Assembly (NCBI GenBank): GCA_017619275.1
Contig: JAFZSR010000109.1
Location: 1-44,967 of the forward strand
Direction: 5' to 3'
DNA: 44,967 nucleotides
Source: Prevotella sp.
GTDB lineage: Bacteria; Bacteroidota; Bacteroidia; Bacteroidales; Bacteroidaceae
Positions 32,998 to 39,655 of this stretch are shown here, in pieces. Both the position numbers and the translations under genes were made by a program. Every line of letters begins with the position of its first letter. The stretch's first letter is position 1. The notes beneath the pieces were generated by a model that searched no databases, was not told where the DNA came from, and saw nothing but the letters and a program-made list of their open reading frames with translations.

Positions 32998-34053
32998 TTA
33001 TTCCGCCGCCTCGTCGTAGAGGCGCTCCACTTCGTCCATCCACACCTTGCCATCCACCACTACGCACTTCACGCGGTTCTTGCCTTTCCAGCTACCGTCG
33101 TAGAACTCATATTCATACCACAGGCCGTCCTCGGTACTTACGCTCACTACCCTCGTGCCCTCGCCCAGGCCGTCGTTCGAACTGGTGCGGAAGAGCCAGA
33201 CGGCATAGCCCTCGCCATCGTACTCGTAGGCCTCGCGCAACTGATTGAGCAGCCGCTCGGTGCAGTGTTCCTTTAGGAAATCTTCCTCGCCATACTTGTA
33301 GTTGTTATACATGTCGGTGATGAAGGCTTTCACTTTCTTCTGCTCCTTGTCGAGAGCGTCCTGCAGTTTCGAGCCGTCGTCCTTGATGTACTTGATGCTG
33401 CGCGTGATGATGTTCTTTCCATAATCCTCCTCGTCGATGGTGCACTTCAGCCAATTGTCGTGGCTGTCCTTATTGGCAAAGCTGATTTTCACGGCGGGTC
33501 CTCCTTCCACCTCGTCGAAGTGTACCACCTCCGTACGCTTGGTGTGGGTGATACGGCCGTCTTCGCCACGGGTGAACTCATAGGTGATGGAGTTGCCCGT
33601 GCGGTTGGTCGAGATGTACTGTTCGGGCCGGGGCATAATGTCTTGGCCATAGTCGAACATCGTCACCCAGGGGTCGTCGCTATACCACTGAATCTCGGTG
33701 ATGCGGCCAACGGCATCGCGCGGCAGGTTGGCCACCTCGGGCTTGCCGTTAACGATGCGCGTCATGCTGATGAGGTATGCTTCATTGTCGAAGCTGAAGG
33801 TGACGTCGGGCCGGTTCTTCTCTGAATAGACAACGGACTGAACCTTTCCGTAGAGGTCGAAGAGGGCCATATCGGGCGAGCGATAGAAATGTTCGACTTC
33901 CTCAACTTCCTCCTCGTCCGCTTCCTCCTCGTCTACTTCTTCTTCCATTGCCTCAGCCTGTTCCTTATTACTCTTGTCTTTGTTGCCGCAAGAAGTTGCT
34001 GTGGCCAAAGCGAATATGGCGGCCACGGCCATCACGTAGTACTTCTTTTTCAT
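32998..34053 (-). CDS. Acidic lipoprotein of unknown function
   Basis: A 351-residue predicted lipoprotein. Signal peptide KKKYYVMAVAAIFALATAT is followed by a lipobox Cys at 22. A strongly acidic stretch (about 35-55, EEEVDEEEADEEEVEEVE) comes next and then a globular region without recognised catalytic motifs. The last 110 residues (KKVKAFITDMYNNYKYGEED, then WYEYEFYDGSWKGKNRVK) resemble small periplasmic DUF3828-like folds, but this is a weak impression. The stop codon abuts the repeat cluster. The 21-bp array lies upstream of the gene, but no clear promoter was found. Confidence 0.7.
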   Translation of the reverse strand: MKKKYYVMAVAAIFALATATSCGNKDKSNKEQAEAMEEEVDEEEADEEEVEEVEHFYRSPDMALFDLYGKVQSVVYSEKNRPDVTFSFDNEAYLISMTRIVNGKPEVANLPRDAVGRITEIQWYSDDPWVTMFDYGQDIMPRPEQYISTNRTGNSITYEFTRGEDGRITHTKRTEVVHFDEVEGGPAVKISFANKDSHDNWLKCTIDEEDYGKNIITRSIKYIKDDGSKLQDALDKEQKKVKAFITDMYNNYKYGEEDFLKEHCTERLLNQLREAYEYDGEGYAVWLFRTSSNDGLGEGTRVVSVSTEDGLWYEYEFYDGSWKGKNRVKCVVVDGKVWMDEVERLYDEAAE

Positions 34054-34146
34054 CGTTCCGTTATGTTGTTTTTTCTTTATTAACGAACCAACAGCAGATT
34101 TATTGCACTTCGCCCCCTTTTGTGACCCAAAGCCTTTTATTTGTTT

Positions 34147-34230
34147 AAACTACGACGTAGTTTATAAAAACCGTGACGCAGTTTATATAGATTACGACGT
34201 AATTTATAAAAACTACGACGTAGTCTAAAG
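34147..34230. repeat. Array of four 21-bp tandem units (copy B)
   Basis: Units of exactly 21 bp start at 34147, 34168, 34189 and 34210, with cores CTACGACGTAG, CGTGACGCAG, TTACGACGTAA and CTACGACGTAG. Three of the cores are perfect palindromes. Unit number and length equal those of 10837-10920, 23 kb away. The array lies between divergent genes, 94 bp upstream of the lipoprotein start and about 100 bp upstream of the restriction-island promoter. Confidence 0.85.
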
Positions 34231-34331
34231 AATGTCTGCACAGGTCGAACGAATTTTAAAACTCGCTACGTGCTTTGCTTAGAAAAACACAAGTTTTTTT
34301 GTTGCCATGATTGATTTCCTCCCTTTTTTCT
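34231..34331. other. Intergenic, AT-rich, no feature seen
   Basis: Between the 21-bp array and the island promoter I see no ORF or hairpin of note. The base composition becomes clearly more AT-rich here, marking the left side of the accessory island. Confidence 0.4.
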
Positions 34332-34362
34332 ATTGCGATAACGATTTTTTTTGTACTTTTGC
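34332..34362 (+). promoter_or_regulatory. Promoter of structured leader and restriction island
   Basis: ATTG (34332-34335), 18 bp, TACTTTTGC (34354-34362). It fits the Bacteroidetes promoter pattern with a slightly weak -33 element. Transcription would begin near 34369, leaving a leader of about 330 nt before ATG 34700. Confidence 0.7.
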
Positions 34363-34368
34363 AACAAG

Positions 34369-34699
34369 TATCGGCTAATCGTCGTGACGCGACGCTGTTT
34401 CGGCAGACAAGGCCAGAGCCTCAGCGGAGGTGCCGGTATGACTTTCGTGGGTTATCAATAACAGCATGAGCAGTTATCTTGGAGAACATAGAAACCTGAC
34501 AAATTTCTAAAGCAAGTTAAATACAGATAATTGTGAATGTCTGCGCTTATAGCGTGGACGTCACTTATCTTTAACTGGGCTTTGTCAGGGCCTCTATGTT
34601 CGGTAAGGAGCGGACACGCTTCTTACGTTCATAGAGGTCTTGATGTTTCGAGCCTATAAAATCCGATAAGTGCTTTTGCCTAAAGCTATAAGCGCAAGA
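34369..34699 (+). ncRNA. Highly structured leader RNA with predicted large pseudoknot
   Basis: Helices read directly from the sequence. S1: CCTGACAAA (34495-34503) with TTTGTCAGG (34581-34589), and AGTTAAA (34515-34521) with TTTAACT (34570-34576). S2: GCGCTTATAGC (34543-34553) with GCTATAAGCGC (34685-34695), and CACTTATC (34562-34569) with GATAAGTG (34665-34672). Hairpin: CCTCTATG (34591-34598) with CATAGAGG (34630-34637), capped by GTAAGGAGCG (34603-34612) with CGCTTCTTAC (34617-34626). S1 and S2 cross, so they form a pseudoknot. Smaller hairpins lie at 34380-34394 and 34401-34435. An alternative helix GACAAGGCC (34406-34414) with GGCTTTGTC (34578-34586) would compete with S1. The last helix ends 4 nt before ATG 34700, so folding could control translation. 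No known RNA family is recognised. It could be a regulatory leader or a functional RNA of the system. Confidence 0.6.
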
Positions 34700-35728
34700 A
34701 TGTCCAACAAAGAAACGGGCGTTGATGCGAATTTGAAATCCGCAACTCAGGAGTCGGGGATTTCAAATCACCTCCAACGCGATGACGACCTGTGGGCATT
34801 GCCGGCGGTGCTTGACACACTGCTGCGCGACCATACCACAGGACGCAACATCTTCTGGGCGACGCACGACTATGAGGCGCTCGGCCCAGAGTATGGCTAC
34901 CATTCCGAAATTCTTCCCCATCTGATTACGGGTAAGCATGGAATGGTCGTCCGTCCGCGTGTGCTGAAATCAAAAGAGGAACAAACTGACCGTTCCAAGG
35001 ATATGGCCGAGGTTTTTACTCCTTCATGGATTTGCAATGCGCAAAACAACCTTGTAGATGAAGCGTGGTTTGGAAGAAAAGACGTGTTCAATATTGAGGA
35101 CACAACTAACCATACATGGAGAACCAACACAAACAAAATCGAATTCCCAGAAGGAAAGACATGGAAAGACTATGTTCGCGCCACTCGTATGGAGATGGCG
35201 TGTGGCGAAGCTCCTTATCTTGTGAGTAGATACGATGCTACAACTGGCGAGCCTATCCCCATAGAAGAGCGAATAGGGCTACTTGACCGTAAACTCCGAA
35301 TTGTCAGCGAAAATGTAGACAACAGCGGTGAGTGGCTGAGATGGGCCCAGACTGCCTACATGAACACCTATGGATTTGAGTGGCAGGGCGACAGTCTTTT
35401 GTTGGCTCGTGAAGCTTTGCTGTGGACCTTTGTTGAATACTATCAAGCGAAGTTCCTGAAAGCTCCGCTCATTAAAAGCATCAATTACATTGCCTACATC
35501 ATTTCTTGGAATCTCTGGCAAATGGACGGCTTGAAGGGCGTTGTCCCCGACAGTTGCAAGAACGGTGTAAGCGAGAAAATACAAACCCTTTTTGGTGAAG
35601 TAGAAAAGGTGGTACATTGTACCGGCTGTCAGCAGGAAGACATCCGTAGGCACAACGGCACATATTGCCTCATCCGTGACTGGCCCAACGACAAGAAGAA
35701 AATCCGATTCATAGACTTAATGAAATAG
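34700..35728 (+). CDS. DNA methyltransferase-like subunit of restriction island, lacks NPPY
   Basis: A 342-residue protein resembling the SAM-binding half of N6-adenine methyltransferases (annotated in relatives as restriction subunit M). Seen: a motif X-like KDMAEVFTPSW (about 101-110), a motif I-like MEMACGEAPYLVSRYD (164-179), and a motif III-like YGFEWQGDSLLLARE (224-238). No NPPY/DPPY catalytic motif is present, so on its own it should not methylate DNA. The ATG at 34700 is preferred; an in-frame GTG at 34670 would start inside an RNA helix. It ends 6 bp before the large helicase-methylase gene. More AT-rich codon use than neighbours suggests horizontal transfer. Confidence 0.75.
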   Translation: MSNKETGVDANLKSATQESGISNHLQRDDDLWALPAVLDTLLRDHTTGRNIFWATHDYEALGPEYGYHSEILPHLITGKHGMVVRPRVLKSKEEQTDRSKDMAEVFTPSWICNAQNNLVDEAWFGRKDVFNIEDTTNHTWRTNTNKIEFPEGKTWKDYVRATRMEMACGEAPYLVSRYDATTGEPIPIEERIGLLDRKLRIVSENVDNSGEWLRWAQTAYMNTYGFEWQGDSLLLAREALLWTFVEYYQAKFLKAPLIKSINYIAYIISWNLWQMDGLKGVVPDSCKNGVSEKIQTLFGEVEKVVHCTGCQQEDIRRHNGTYCLIRDWPNDKKKIRFIDLMK

Positions 35729-35734
35729 AGACCT

Positions 35735-38700
35735 ATGGCTACATTCGAATCATCCCTGAAGTCAAAACTCATTTATGTCTTTGCCATCAACGACGAGCGA
35801 CATAAGGACTGTTTGAAGATAGGAGAGACCACTATTGACGAAGACGATGGTAGTGATCTCTTCAATAATGCTGAGACGCTTCAAAAAGCAGCCCACAATC
35901 GAATACGGCAGTATACCAAGACGGCAGGCATAGCATATCAGTTGCTCTACACCGAGGTTAGCATCTTCGTGCGAAGTGGCATGATTATGACCTTCAACGA
36001 CAAACAGGTGCATAAGGTGCTGGAGCGTAGCGGTATCAAGCGCAAAGAGTTCGAGGGTGTCAGTGGTGCCGACGAGTGGTTCTGCTGCGACCTGGAAACG
36101 GTGAAGAAGGCCATTAGTGCTGTGAAACGAGGCGAGGCGAGTTTGCACCCTTCAGACATTACCCAGAAACAGTCGCCCATCATCTTCCGCCCGGAGCAGG
36201 AAAGTGCCATTAACAAGACTCGCAAGCGATTCCGCAAAGGTAATCAGATGCTTTGGAATGCCAAGATGCGGTTCGGCAAGACGCTCTCCGCCCTTCAGGT
36301 TGTGAAAGAAGAAGAGTTTACGCGTACCATAATATTAACGCATCGTCCTGTTGTAGATAAAGGCTGGTTTGAGGATTTCGCCAAGATTTTCTACGACAGG
36401 AAGGATTATCATTATGGCTCGAAAGGCAACGGTGAATTGTTTGAGAAACTTGAAGAGTTGGCAAACAAAGGCTGCAAGTATATTTATTTCGCCTCCATGC
36501 AAGACCTTCGTGGTTCTGAGCAGGTGGGAGGTAAGTTCGACAAGAACAACGAGATATTCTTTACCCCTTGGGATTTCGTCATTGTAGACGAGGCACATGA
36601 AGGAACAAAAACAGAACTTGGGCAGAACGTTCTGAAGGAACTAATAAAGCAGGATACAAAGGTACTACAACTGTCGGGTACGCCCTTCAATCTCTTCGAC
36701 GACTACAGCGAGGAAGAGATCTTTACGTGGGATTACGTGATGGAACAGAAGGCCAAGCTGGCTTGGGAAACTGACAACCCGTATGAGCCGAACCCTTACG
36801 CCTCGTTGCCTGCCATTAATATCTATACCTACGACTTGGGCACACTGATGTCGGAGTACCTAGAAGATGAAAAGGCTTTCAACTTCCGTGAGTTCTTCCG
36901 GACCAAGGACGATGACACTTTTATTCATGACAAGGATGTAGATTGTTTCTTGAATCTCCTTTGCAAGGAAGACAAGGACAGTCTCTATCCCTATAGTAAT
37001 GATAGATTCCGTCGTATTTTCCGACACACACTGTGGGTAGTACCTGGTGTAAAGGCTGCAAGGGCATTGAGTGCCAAACTCAAGAATCATCCTGTATTCG
37101 GAAAGTTTCAGCCAGTCAATGTGGCAGGTCAGGGCGATGAAGACGAGGAGAATGCAGAGGCTTTGCAGATGGTGAACAAAGCCATAGGCAAAGACCCTGA
37201 TGAGACTTATACCATCACATTGAGTTGCGGACGTCTGACAACGGGCGTGAGCATCAAACCTTGGACAGCAGTGTTCATGATGGCTGGCTCGTTCAGCACC
37301 TCGGCTGCCCAGTACATGCAAACCATCTTCCGCGTGCAGACACCGTTTACTTCTCATGGGCGCATGAAGGAACAGTGTTACGCCTTTGACTTTGCACCCG
37401 ACCGCACACTGAGGGTGCTGGCTGAGACTGCAAAGGTTTCAGCAAAGGCAGGAAAACAAACAGAAGAAGATCGTCGCATCTTGGGTGACTTCCTAAACTT
37501 TTGTCCTATCATCAGCATTGAGGGTTCACGTATGAAAGAGTACGATGTCGATAAGATGATGGGCCAGCTGAAGAAAGCCCAGATAGAAAAGGTGGTGCAG
37601 TGTGGCTTTGAGGACGGAGCACTCTACAACGATGAACTGCTAAAGCTGACGGATGTGGAACTGCGCGATTTTGACGACTTGAAGAAAACTATTGGCACCA
37701 CGAAGGCAATGGCAAAGACGGGCGATATCGATGTCAACAACCAAGGTTTCACGAACGAGCAGTATGAGGAGAAAAAGAAACTGGAGAAGAAGAAAAAGAA
37801 AGACCTCACACCCGAAGAGAAGGCACGCTTAGAAGAACTGAAAGCAATGAGCAATCAGCGGCGCAATGCCATCAGCATCCTGCGAGGCATTTCTATTCGT
37901 ATGCCGTTGCTCATCTATGGTGCAGAATTGAAGAATGAGGAAAAAGAAATCACCATCAACAATTTTGCCTCGCTTATTGATGACCAATCGTGGGAGGAGT
38001 TTATGCCCAAGGGGGTCGACAAGGAGAAATTTGAAAAGTTCAAGAAGTATTACGACCCAGACGTCTTCCGAGAGGCTGGCAAGCGCATCCGTGAGATGGC
38101 GCGTGCCGCAGACAAGTTTACGATAGAAGAGCGTATTGAACGTATCTCTGCCATCTTCAACACCTTCCGCAACCCAGACAAGGAAACAGTATTGACTCCT
38201 TGGCGGGTGGTGAACATGCACATGAGTGATTGTCTCGGCGGCTGGTGCTTCTATAACGAAGGGTTCAAACAGACGTTGTCGCTGCCACGCTATGTATATC
38301 AGGGTCAGGTGACGAAAGATGTGTTCCGTACCGATAGCCATATCCTTGAAATCAATTCAAAGAGCGGTCTCTATCCGCTGTATGTAGCATACAACATCTA
38401 TCGCTCTCGTGTAGAGGCAGCCAAAGCCAAGTATGGCGAAGTATCTCACGGCTTTGCCATGAACTTATGGGATGCCACCATTGAAGAAAACATACTTGTG
38501 GTTTGCAAGACCCCAATGGCCAAAAGCATTACCAAGCGCACACTTGCTGGATTCCGCAACACTCGTGTGAATGCTCAATATTATCCCGACTTAATCCAAA
38601 ACATTACAGAACGTCCAGAAGCTGTCGTCAACACCTTCCGCGACGGCAAACGATTCTGGAAGATAAACGAAAATACGAATATGAAATTTGATGCAATTGT

Positions 38701-39655
38701 AGGAAATCCGCCGTATCAGGTTATGGATGGAGGAACAGACAGAGGGGCCGTCCCCGTATATCAGTACTTGGTTGAAATTGCCAAAAAGTGCAAACCCAAC
38801 TATATCTCTATGATTATGCCTGCTCGTTGGTATGCAGGAGGAAGAGGACTCGATGAGTTTAGAGAATGTATGCTCTCTGACAAACGAGTACAATATCTGT
38901 ATGATTTCGAAACAAGTAAGGATTTGTTCCCTACAGTTGACATTGCTGGCGGATTGTGCTATTTCTTATGGCATAAAACAAACGTCGCCCCATGTAAGGT
39001 ATATAATGTAAATCCTTTAGGTTCTTGCTGTGTAGAACGTTATCTTGACGAATTTCCTGTATTTATACGTTCCAACACATCAATACCTATCTTAAAGAAA
39101 GTGACCAACAAATCTACAGAGTATCTCAATAGCCTTGTTCTCTCTATCAATCCGTTTGGATTTAGAACATATTATAGAGGAAGAAAAGAAAAAAAAGATG
39201 GAGATATTAAGATACTTACCAGTGAAGGATGGGGGTACGTTAGCCGCTCTGAGATTACAAAAGGCATTGTAAACGTAAACAAATATAAAATCATCGTTGG
39301 AAGATTTGTTCCTAGTAATGGTGAGTTAAATGTTAAGCCTGGCGAGGGATATAGAGTACTCACTACACCAAGAATCCTGAAAACAGACGAGATAAATACA
39401 GAAACATATATAGACACAGCTGTATTTGATACGCTGAACGAAGCAACGAACTACAGAAACTATCTGTGTACGAAGTTTGCCCGTTATCTGCTGAGGCAAG
39501 CAATCACGTCTGTCAATGTTACACGGGAATGTTTTGCTTTTGTCCCCATGCAAGACTTCAGTCGCCCATGGACGGATGCGGAACTCTATGCTAAATACGA
39601 ACTAACGGACGAAGAAATCGCTTTTATCGAGTCAATGATTAAACCAATGGAATAG
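35735..39655 (+). CDS. GIY-YIG-like nuclease, SF2 helicase and Eco57I-type methylase fusion
   Basis: A 1306-residue restriction-type enzyme. Residues about 11-130 look like a GIY-YIG/T5orf172 nuclease (KLIYVFAI, LKIGETT, HNRIRQY, VHKVLE). A superfamily 2 helicase follows: RPEQESAI near 152, Walker A AKMRFGKT near 177, DEAH at 285-288, LSGTP at 313-317, and TIFRVQTPF near 530. A Lys/Glu-rich coiled coil spans about 667-712. The C-terminal methylase has a divergent motif I, ILEINSKSGLYPL (from 870), and FDAIVGNPPY with the NPPY motif at 991-994, then a probable target-recognition region to the end. The order nuclease-helicase-methylase-recognition resembles Type ISP enzymes such as LlaBIII, but with a GIY-YIG-like module instead of Mrr. 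Target sequence unknown. Confidence 0.85.
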   Translation: MATFESSLKSKLIYVFAINDERHKDCLKIGETTIDEDDGSDLFNNAETLQKAAHNRIRQYTKTAGIAYQLLYTEVSIFVRSGMIMTFNDKQVHKVLERSGIKRKEFEGVSGADEWFCCDLETVKKAISAVKRGEASLHPSDITQKQSPIIFRPEQESAINKTRKRFRKGNQMLWNAKMRFGKTLSALQVVKEEEFTRTIILTHRPVVDKGWFEDFAKIFYDRKDYHYGSKGNGELFEKLEELANKGCKYIYFASMQDLRGSEQVGGKFDKNNEIFFTPWDFVIVDEAHEGTKTELGQNVLKELIKQDTKVLQLSGTPFNLFDDYSEEEIFTWDYVMEQKAKLAWETDNPYEPNPYASLPAINIYTYDLGTLMSEYLEDEKAFNFREFFRTKDDDTFIHDKDVDCFLNLLCKEDKDSLYPYSNDRFRRIFRHTLWVVPGVKAARALSAKLKNHPVFGKFQPVNVAGQGDEDEENAEALQMVNKAIGKDPDETYTITLSCGRLTTGVSIKPWTAVFMMAGSFSTSAAQYMQTIFRVQTPFTSHGRMKEQCYAFDFAPDRTLRVLAETAKVSAKAGKQTEEDRRILGDFLNFCPIISIEGSRMKEYDVDKMMGQLKKAQIEKVVQCGFEDGALYNDELLKLTDVELRDFDDLKKTIGTTKAMAKTGDIDVNNQGFTNEQYEEKKKLEKKKKKDLTPEEKARLEELKAMSNQRRNAISILRGISIRMPLLIYGAELKNEEKEITINNFASLIDDQSWEEFMPKGVDKEKFEKFKKYYDPDVFREAGKRIREMARAADKFTIEERIERISAIFNTFRNPDKETVLTPWRVVNMHMSDCLGGWCFYNEGFKQTLSLPRYVYQGQVTKDVFRTDSHILEINSKSGLYPLYVAYNIYRSRVEAAKAKYGEVSHGFAMNLWDATIEENILVVCKTPMAKSITKRTLAGFRNTRVNAQYYPDLIQNITERPEAVVNTFRDGKRFWKINENTNMKFDAIVGNPPYQVMDGGTDRGAVPVYQYLVEIAKKCKPNYISMIMPARWYAGGRGLDEFRECMLSDKRVQYLYDFETSKDLFPTVDIAGGLCYFLWHKTNVAPCKVYNVNPLGSCCVERYLDEFPVFIRSNTSIPILKKVTNKSTEYLNSLVLSINPFGFRTYYRGRKEKKDGDIKILTSEGWGYVSRSEITKGIVNVNKYKIIVGRFVPSNGELNVKPGEGYRVLTTPRILKTDEINTETYIDTAVFDTLNEATNYRNYLCTKFARYLLRQAITSVNVTRECFAFVPMQDFSRPWTDAELYAKYELTDEEIAFIESMIKPME

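Follow-up and report, generated by a model that had tools for sequence, protein, structure and literature searches.

Protection of a cell's own DNA from restriction enzymes is for the most part attributed to controller proteins and promoters. A locus of Prevotella sp. (GCA_017619275.1, contig JAFZSR010000109.1) raises the question whether the folding of a messenger RNA takes part in the control of a restriction operon as well. Within the 44,967 nucleotides analysed (the window), a strongly structured 5′ leader of about 330 nt (34369–34699) lies between a promoter box and two restriction genes. The −7 box TACTTTTG (34354–34361, plus strand), read from the sequence, is of the Bacteroidota TAnnTTTG type and bears out the good promoter that the sequence-only reading had seen in front of the leader; from its position the transcript is predicted to start at about 34368. 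A −7-type pattern (T[AT]NNTTTG) was found 40–200 nt 5′ of the leader core in 94 of 99 relatives, a plain count with no shuffled control. The first gene (34700–35728, plus strand) encodes 342 amino acids and is recognised by the PADLOC MTase_II model PDLC03390; no Pfam or NCBIfam family matched it. The second gene (35735–39655, plus strand) encodes 1306 amino acids with a ResIII helicase domain and an Eco57I-type methylase domain according to domain scans. The upstream neighbour gene (32998–34053) is located on the other strand, and just 5′ of the promoter a spaced, partly palindromic unit of 21 bp (ACTACGACGTAGT-like) is present in four tandem copies (34140–34244).

Three helices had already been described in the leader, and each is found to the base where it had been placed. 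S1 is composed of P6 (34495–34503 with 34581–34589, 9 bp) and P7 (34515–34521 with 34570–34576, 7 bp), S2 of two segments (34543–34553 with 34685–34695, 11 bp; 34562–34569 with 34665–34672, 8 bp) and the 18-bp 3′ hairpin likewise of two (34591–34598 with 34630–34637, 8 bp; 34603–34612 with 34617–34626, 10 bp). S2 ends 4 nt before the ATG of the 342-aa gene at 34700. That such pairing exceeds chance was also correctly judged: the minimum free energy (MFE) of the whole leader is −123.5 compared with −90.2 ± 4.6 in 100 shuffles (z −7.2), and that of the core region 34483–34702 is −82.6 (z −7.5), a value equalled by none of 200 shuffles. Additional structure comprises P5, P8, P9 and a 5′ domain (34369–34438, plus strand). 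The latter consists of P1 (34369–34375 with 34432–34438), recognised by eye from relatives, and of P2 (34380–34385 with 34389–34394) and P4 (34419–34422 with 34427–34430, AGCG loop), both taken from the fold; its inner hairpins are optional among relatives. The whole-leader MFE structure pairs the 5′ strand of P1 with 34663–34668 instead, which is predicted by neither of the two states described below. Downstream follows the hairpin P5a (34458–34477, plus strand), assigned by eye; a hairpin of the AAGC-NNNN-GCUU type occupies the same place in relatives throughout the phylum.

The comparison of homologous loci started from 80 genes collected by protein similarity to the 342-aa gene. A leader match was obtained by blastn at 54 of these loci and with a covariance model at 59. 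Among the other 21, two are cut by a contig end, four look divergent by eye and 15 are seemingly leaderless. The sequence-only reading had named homologous genes lacking the leader as an observation that would speak against it; most homologues do carry a model match nearby, and those 15 form the part of the family for which the objection holds. Because of these seemingly leaderless homologues, the leader is an exchangeable regulatory module and not an obligate part of the restriction system in the window. A divergent, longer leader with an enlarged P9 arm occurs at six loci, two of which (L059, L093) are weak model matches, the rest (L070, L083, L087, L088) being recognised by eye.

Of 72 core sequences collected, 42 went into the model R1, i.e. 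45 non-redundant ones minus the divergent L008, L016 and L022. In the R1 alignment 84.4 % of the cells are paired (73.4 % after shuffling), double changes occur in 35 of the 53 pairs, and covariation reaches 0.372 compared with 0.190 for shuffled and at most 0.112 for slid alignments. Matches not used to build the model gave even higher values: 0.532 (shuffled 0.228, slid at most 0.153) for 100 later matches of the genus (A2), a few of which are perhaps the same places as training sequences, and 0.504 (shuffled 0.183, slid at most 0.107) for 48 matches of the order and phylum samples (A3). These scores are to be read with the reservation that the alignments A2, A3 and A5 are fitted to the model structure and that the shuffles ignore relatedness; the slid versions of A2 and A3 all stay far below the real score. 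On 576 kb of 100 fetched stretches R1 produced 100 matches, one per stretch. Furthermore, one-sided changes which keep the pairing through G-U are frequent in P9. Judged from these substitution patterns, the leader is conserved as RNA. The check proposed at the outset, a covariance model together with an Rfam search, has thus revealed abundant compensatory changes and no Rfam family for the core.

S1 and S2 cross each other and had been taken for a single pseudoknot. Both helices are real; as far as predicted folds can tell, they are better read as two alternative folds, since for 34483–34702 the MFE structure represents one of them (state A) and the centroid the other (state B). The element common to both is a middle arm (34543–34601, plus strand; covariation, partner swaps and folds), for which a 5′ arm and a 3′ arm are the alternative partners. 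In state A it provides the 3′ strands of P9, P8, P7, P6 and P5, the 5′ strands of P5 (34484–34492), P6, P7 and P8 (34526–34530 and 34533–34535) being located in the 5′ arm (34484–34536, plus strand); P9, defined by covariation, is a hairpin (AUGUCUGCGC-UUAUA-GCGUGGACGU; 34537–34561, plus strand). In state B it provides the 5′ strands of S2 and of an extended P10. The corresponding strands of the 3′ arm (both plus) are 34630–34643 for the extended P10 (partner 34585–34598) and 34665–34695 for S2 (partners 34543–34553 and 34562–34569). That each of the crossing helices belongs to one of two rival folds would explain the arrangement in the window, and a pseudoknotted intermediate may exist between the folds.

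Both folds were scored on 56 leaders aligned from the core to the start codon (A6). State A (P5–P9) shows 87.9 % paired cells and a covariation of 0.401 (shuffled 0.176, slid at most 0.104). State B (S2 and extended P10) has 83.8 % paired cells compared with 80.3 % after shuffling and double changes in 25 of 46 pairs; its covariation of 0.169 passes both controls (shuffled 0.117, slid at most 0.094) by a smaller margin than that of state A, and the S2 helices themselves are 93.3–95.5 % paired. In addition, partners were swapped between loci, using those 83 out of 99 at which an ORF begins 40–95 nt past the core. The own partner was better than the swapped mean in 83 of 83 cases for P5/P6, in 81 for the extended P10 and in 74 for S2, and the median share of swaps pairing equally well was 1, 10 and 23 %, respectively. 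The mean energy of S2 is −20.1 and with a shuffled partner −14.1; within the 342-aa family the S2 strands are largely invariant. The end of S2 has a median distance of 4 nt to the ATG and lies within 15 nt of it in 68 of the 83 genus loci. State energies, computed by masking one arm and ignoring loop-loop contacts, are −82.2 kcal/mol (A) and −80.9 kcal/mol (B) for the window leader; over 84 leaders the mean difference B − A is −3.3 ± 6.3 kcal/mol, with 48 leaders within 5 kcal and state B lower in 57. By these estimates the two states are nearly equal in energy.

On comparative grounds, two mutually exclusive helix sets with a common strand are thus conserved and both covary, state B more weakly. 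A promoter and the position next to the AUG are kept in Prevotella, as traced by sequence pattern, whereas the position is not fixed in the order and phylum sample. The two-state character suspected from the sequence is supported by this, but not the helix that had been proposed as the competitor: the pairing of 34406–34414 with 34578–34586 does exist, yet its 5′ strand is part of a linker which by eye is variable or absent among relatives, so that it is probably due to chance.

How far is this RNA distributed? R1 matches were obtained in 232 of 299 genus genomes; the order sample yielded 101 of 295 and the phylum sample 26 of 296, the own genome being included in each tally. R2, a model made from 48 distant members, matches 38 of the 296 phylum-sample genomes, nine of them outside the class; its matches are partly its own training sequences, and 12 of the 38 genomes are without an R1 match. 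These tallies are probably underestimates because just 9–10 candidates per genome were scored. Several matches in G075, G368, G377 and G472 lie about 200–400 nt from contig ends, as if upstream repeats had broken the assembly. Besides the copy in the window, the own genome contains two more: G000:C72 has one in front of a type I-like methylase gene, and G000:C30 has one in front of a lipoprotein-like gene. At the last of these (L307, G000:C30:1–3600) the lipoprotein-like gene adjoins, by eye, excisionase-like and tyrosine recombinase-like genes. With regard to phage or plasmid carriage, the single exact-pattern match in viral contigs (L306) turned out to be unrelated G+C-rich DNA, and a second pattern gave none.

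None of the families in Rfam 15 matched the whole window at its gathering threshold, and at E ≤ 5 the leader produced one chance snoRNA match and nothing else. A scan of 20 relatives detected just a DUF805 RNA outside the core (L257) and a tRNA, and 18 further loci at E ≤ 1 contained an rteR in L284, again outside the core, plus two chance matches. The DUF805 RNA (L257, 1399–1467, minus strand) and the rteR sRNA (L284, 46–128, plus strand) are located beside, not inside, members of the class. A known Rfam RNA, SAM riboswitches included, could therefore be rejected as an explanation for the core, which has no match to any family. The leader had been called an unrecognised RNA on restriction genes; this description holds, and the same leader recurs before other restriction systems.

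The genes behind the leader were surveyed at 100 places taken from the ranked genus listing from rank 34 downward; not every place was included, and the sample favours well-scoring leaders. Following ORFs of at least 100 amino acids were counted, and two places, which remain in A2, were taken out of the census (L169, wrong side fetched; L146, no ORF of 100 aa). The genes were sorted into types by BLASTP clustering (single linkage, E ≤ 1e-8), with Pfam and PADLOC applied to one to four representatives per large cluster. According to this census 89 of 98 leaders precede restriction-modification genes of unrelated types: 34 genes of the PLD/SNF2-helicase type (with a type IIG-matching gene next in both loci tested, L140 and L184), 21 MmeI/Eco57I-type IIG enzymes, 12 EcoRI-family methylases, ten HsdM type I, three D12 methylases, three C5 methylases, two relatives of the 342-aa gene (by resemblance), two type III-like methylases, one other N6 methylase and one of ResIII type. 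Beyond these 89, L158 and L220 appear by eye to be truncated remnants. The remaining seven differ: two PAP2, one AMP-binding, one HIRAN, one of unknown type and two further ones, of which one is a TPR gene with MazG-like and helicase genes behind it and the other has HerA- and Hsp90-like genes behind it (by eye). The first ORF starts 41–75 nt past the core in 80 of the 98 loci. At L199, L208 and L213 the C5 methylase ORF starts 331–586 nt past the core, and related small ORFs (MSSIQDI...) are found between leader and methylase at L199 and L213.

The reverse check, starting from restriction genes of the genus, detected the leader before 11 of 75 loci (6 of 30 for EcoRI-type methylases, 3 of 15 for the MmeI type and 2 of 30 for HsdM), which is a lower bound because fragments and loci cut off by a contig end are among them; the HsdM loci are 30 of the 44 places listed. 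A twelfth, weak match (L346) is located 3′ of its gene. Most restriction genes of these three families in the genus hence do without the leader. Outside the genus an ORF was chosen in 46 of 48 loci: 26 are secreted-like by eye and include BspA-type repeat and TonB-receptor proteins, 12 are others and eight are restriction-like (by Pfam L249, L250 and the ResIII-type helicase L266; by resemblance L238, L239, L240, L242 and L255). The distance from core to gene varies there from 23 to several hundred nucleotides. A similar mix of genes was encountered at 20 more loci from copy-rich genomes. In view of the secreted and surface proteins behind the same RNA class and of the 11 in 75 restriction loci, it is unlikely that the leader belongs, as had been suggested, to the defence system as its RNA component.

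We consider it probable, with odds of about 60 %, that the leader is a cis-acting bistable switch in the 5′ UTR of the operon mRNA and a member of a broadly distributed Bacteroidota RNA class. State A, with 5′ and middle arm paired (P5–P9), could form first during transcription; it would leave the sequence before the start codon free and allow translation of the first restriction gene. In state B the 3′ arm would take over the middle arm by the extended P10 and S2, mask the region up to about 4 nt before the AUG and thereby reduce translation. A signal acting on the 5′ part, e.g. a ligand, a protein, the ribosome or the transcription rate, would set the balance. Both the effect on translation and its direction (A on, B off) are inferred. 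Because the core-to-gene distance outside the genus varies, translational masking cannot be the whole story, and transcription attenuation may come in addition throughout the phylum.

Attenuation could also be the primary event. The 3′ strands of P9 and P8 are able to pair, as a third alternative, with a downstream strand (GAUAAG...CCACGC) followed by a U-tract, which would represent an intrinsic terminator with P5–P9 as antiterminator; in Prevotella, the masking of translation would then come on top. Within the genus the own strand forms this helix better than swapped ones in 98 of 99 members, a median of 15 % of the swaps pairing equally well; for the order/phylum members the values are 43 of 48 and 13 %. 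Anchoring succeeded for 71 of the 99 and 38 of the 48 sequences, and among these a U-rich tail (at least six T of nine) occurs in 66 and 36, respectively, so that this reading would apply phylum-wide. However, the loop of such a terminator would measure about 50 nt, and in several members the complementary sequence by eye runs on past the U-tract. In the window itself the P10 inner hairpin (34603–34612 with 34617–34626) and the terminator-like strand GGUAAGGAGCGGACACGC (feature 34603–34626, plus strand; placed from relatives) precede a U-rich stretch, but the helix is weak (GGACACGC), and the single site of a terminator scan is P9, with 0.5 expected by chance. Attenuation as the primary event is a tentative proposal, at somewhat less than even odds. 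In seven members (L267, L269, L271, L272, L274, L297, L305) a GGGACU-like segment or hairpin 3′ of the U-tract is by eye complementary to AGUCCC before it, which suggests yet another alternative pairing.

Other proposals concern what might set the balance. All 148 matches have the AA before P6 and the GG of a GGY motif, and the CC of RCC is kept in 147–148 of them. Conservation of this degree across a phylum, the layout of a core (AA/RCC, AAUUU/GGY around P6) followed by 3′ arms, and the methylases downstream would suit an aptamer with its expression platform, and the ligand might be S-adenosylmethionine or a related signal. On the other hand, many of the invariant nucleotides lie within two short stems and are largely accounted for by them. 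GGY:RCC forms a 3-bp stem that encloses the 3′ strand of P6 in its loop (in the window GGC-loop-GCC, 34578–34580 with 34590–34592, feature 34578–34592, plus strand), and its third pair covaries (U-A in 56 and C-G in 40 of 100 in A2; 45 of 48 including three U-G in A3). A GAAA:UUUC hairpin carries the 5′ strand of P6 in its loop; in the extension of this hairpin the own partner is preferred in 91 of 100 genus members and in 33 of 48 elsewhere. Since both P6 strands are situated in hairpin loops, P6 is probably a loop-loop contact between the two hairpins. Considering, moreover, that restriction systems, secreted proteins and TonB receptors share no metabolic pathway and that not even SAM riboswitch models match the core, a ligand riboswitch appears unlikely. 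The putative kissing hairpins together with P5a are plausible protein sites, and a short reading frame (MTFVGYQ*, 34438–34461, read from the sequence) is present in the leader; a trans-acting RNA-binding protein or translation of this frame could thus shift the balance. But an ATGAY start at that site is found in just 38 of 99 relatives, so there is no conserved short reading frame and a conserved upstream peptide is unlikely, which leaves control by protein or ribosome possible, though on the less probable side. Finally, common leaders might serve at the DNA level as recombination or transposition sites by which restriction cassettes are swapped. Unrelated restriction systems behind the same leader, the copy beside excisionase- and integrase-like genes and the matches near contig ends would fit this, but the G-U-preserving changes in P9 fit RNA, the promoter-like box and the spacing to the start codon speak against it as well, and the window leader, the one sequence used as query, has no blastn match in phage and plasmid collections. 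A DNA element is accordingly highly improbable.

Starting from the bistable switch, one may ask whether a single phylum-wide class gates a subset of the unrelated Prevotella restriction systems and one kind of signal, for instance phage infection, arrival in a new host or the methyl-donor state, would flip all of them as an RNA-controlled defence regulon. As only 11 of 75 restriction loci carry the leader, this extension is doubtful. A conserved RNA leader common to unrelated restriction systems would nevertheless constitute a new layer of defence control; the class would add a large regulatory RNA to a major phylum of gut, rumen and environment, and it would give leads on the control of surface proteins in Bacteroidota.

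Structured RNAs directly upstream of a defence gene are known from ToxI/ToxN-type partners; the present class differs from them by preceding unrelated genes, whether of defence or not. The closest likeness in mechanism is with riboswitch expression platforms, such as the strand exchange treated in the available part of a fluoride riboswitch study (PMC13273304): a middle strand is common to two exclusive helices and an effect on the start site or on a terminator is expected, and in the leader both helices covary. Unlike these platforms, the leader has no known aptamer, is about 300 nt long, contains a putative kissing-loop core and stands in front of unrelated types of restriction system. Flavo-1 (RF01705) and other Bacteroidetes motifs (Weinberg et al. 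2010, PMC2864571, as far as its accessible text goes) are likewise structured RNAs of unknown role found by comparison, but their Rfam models match neither the window nor the cores of the 38 loci scanned. For Flavobacterium psychrophilum the accessible part of PMC9723704 lists 64 structured 5′ regions, some without Rfam match, which could include members of the class; the genes named in that part are amino-acid, tRNA-synthetase and other genes, with no restriction leaders among them. In the open full-text literature, including the accessible portions of PMC9723704, PMC8040213, PMC2864571, PMC11109978, PMC7160235, PMC13273304 and PMC8632094 (subscription journals, preprints and supplements being outside this scope), no prior description of the leader was found. 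An unlabelled entry may stand in a large candidate list such as that of PMC8040213, of which a part was available. The class is thus apparently undescribed: as a cis-acting switch leader it is known in kind, and nothing was found like its sequence family, its architecture and its link to unrelated restriction systems.

Another form of control is familiar from the same gene family. Restriction operons of Bacteroides are known to be gated by invertible promoters, and in six homologues of the 342-aa gene from other Bacteroidales (L096, L098, L099, L101, L103, L105) the leader is missing and short repeats by eye flank a promoter-like segment near integrase-like sequence. This gating differs from that proposed for the leader in using DNA inversion instead of RNA folding. 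Between L098 and L099, both without RNA leader, the promoter-like segment is found by eye in opposite orientations, suggesting an invertible promoter.
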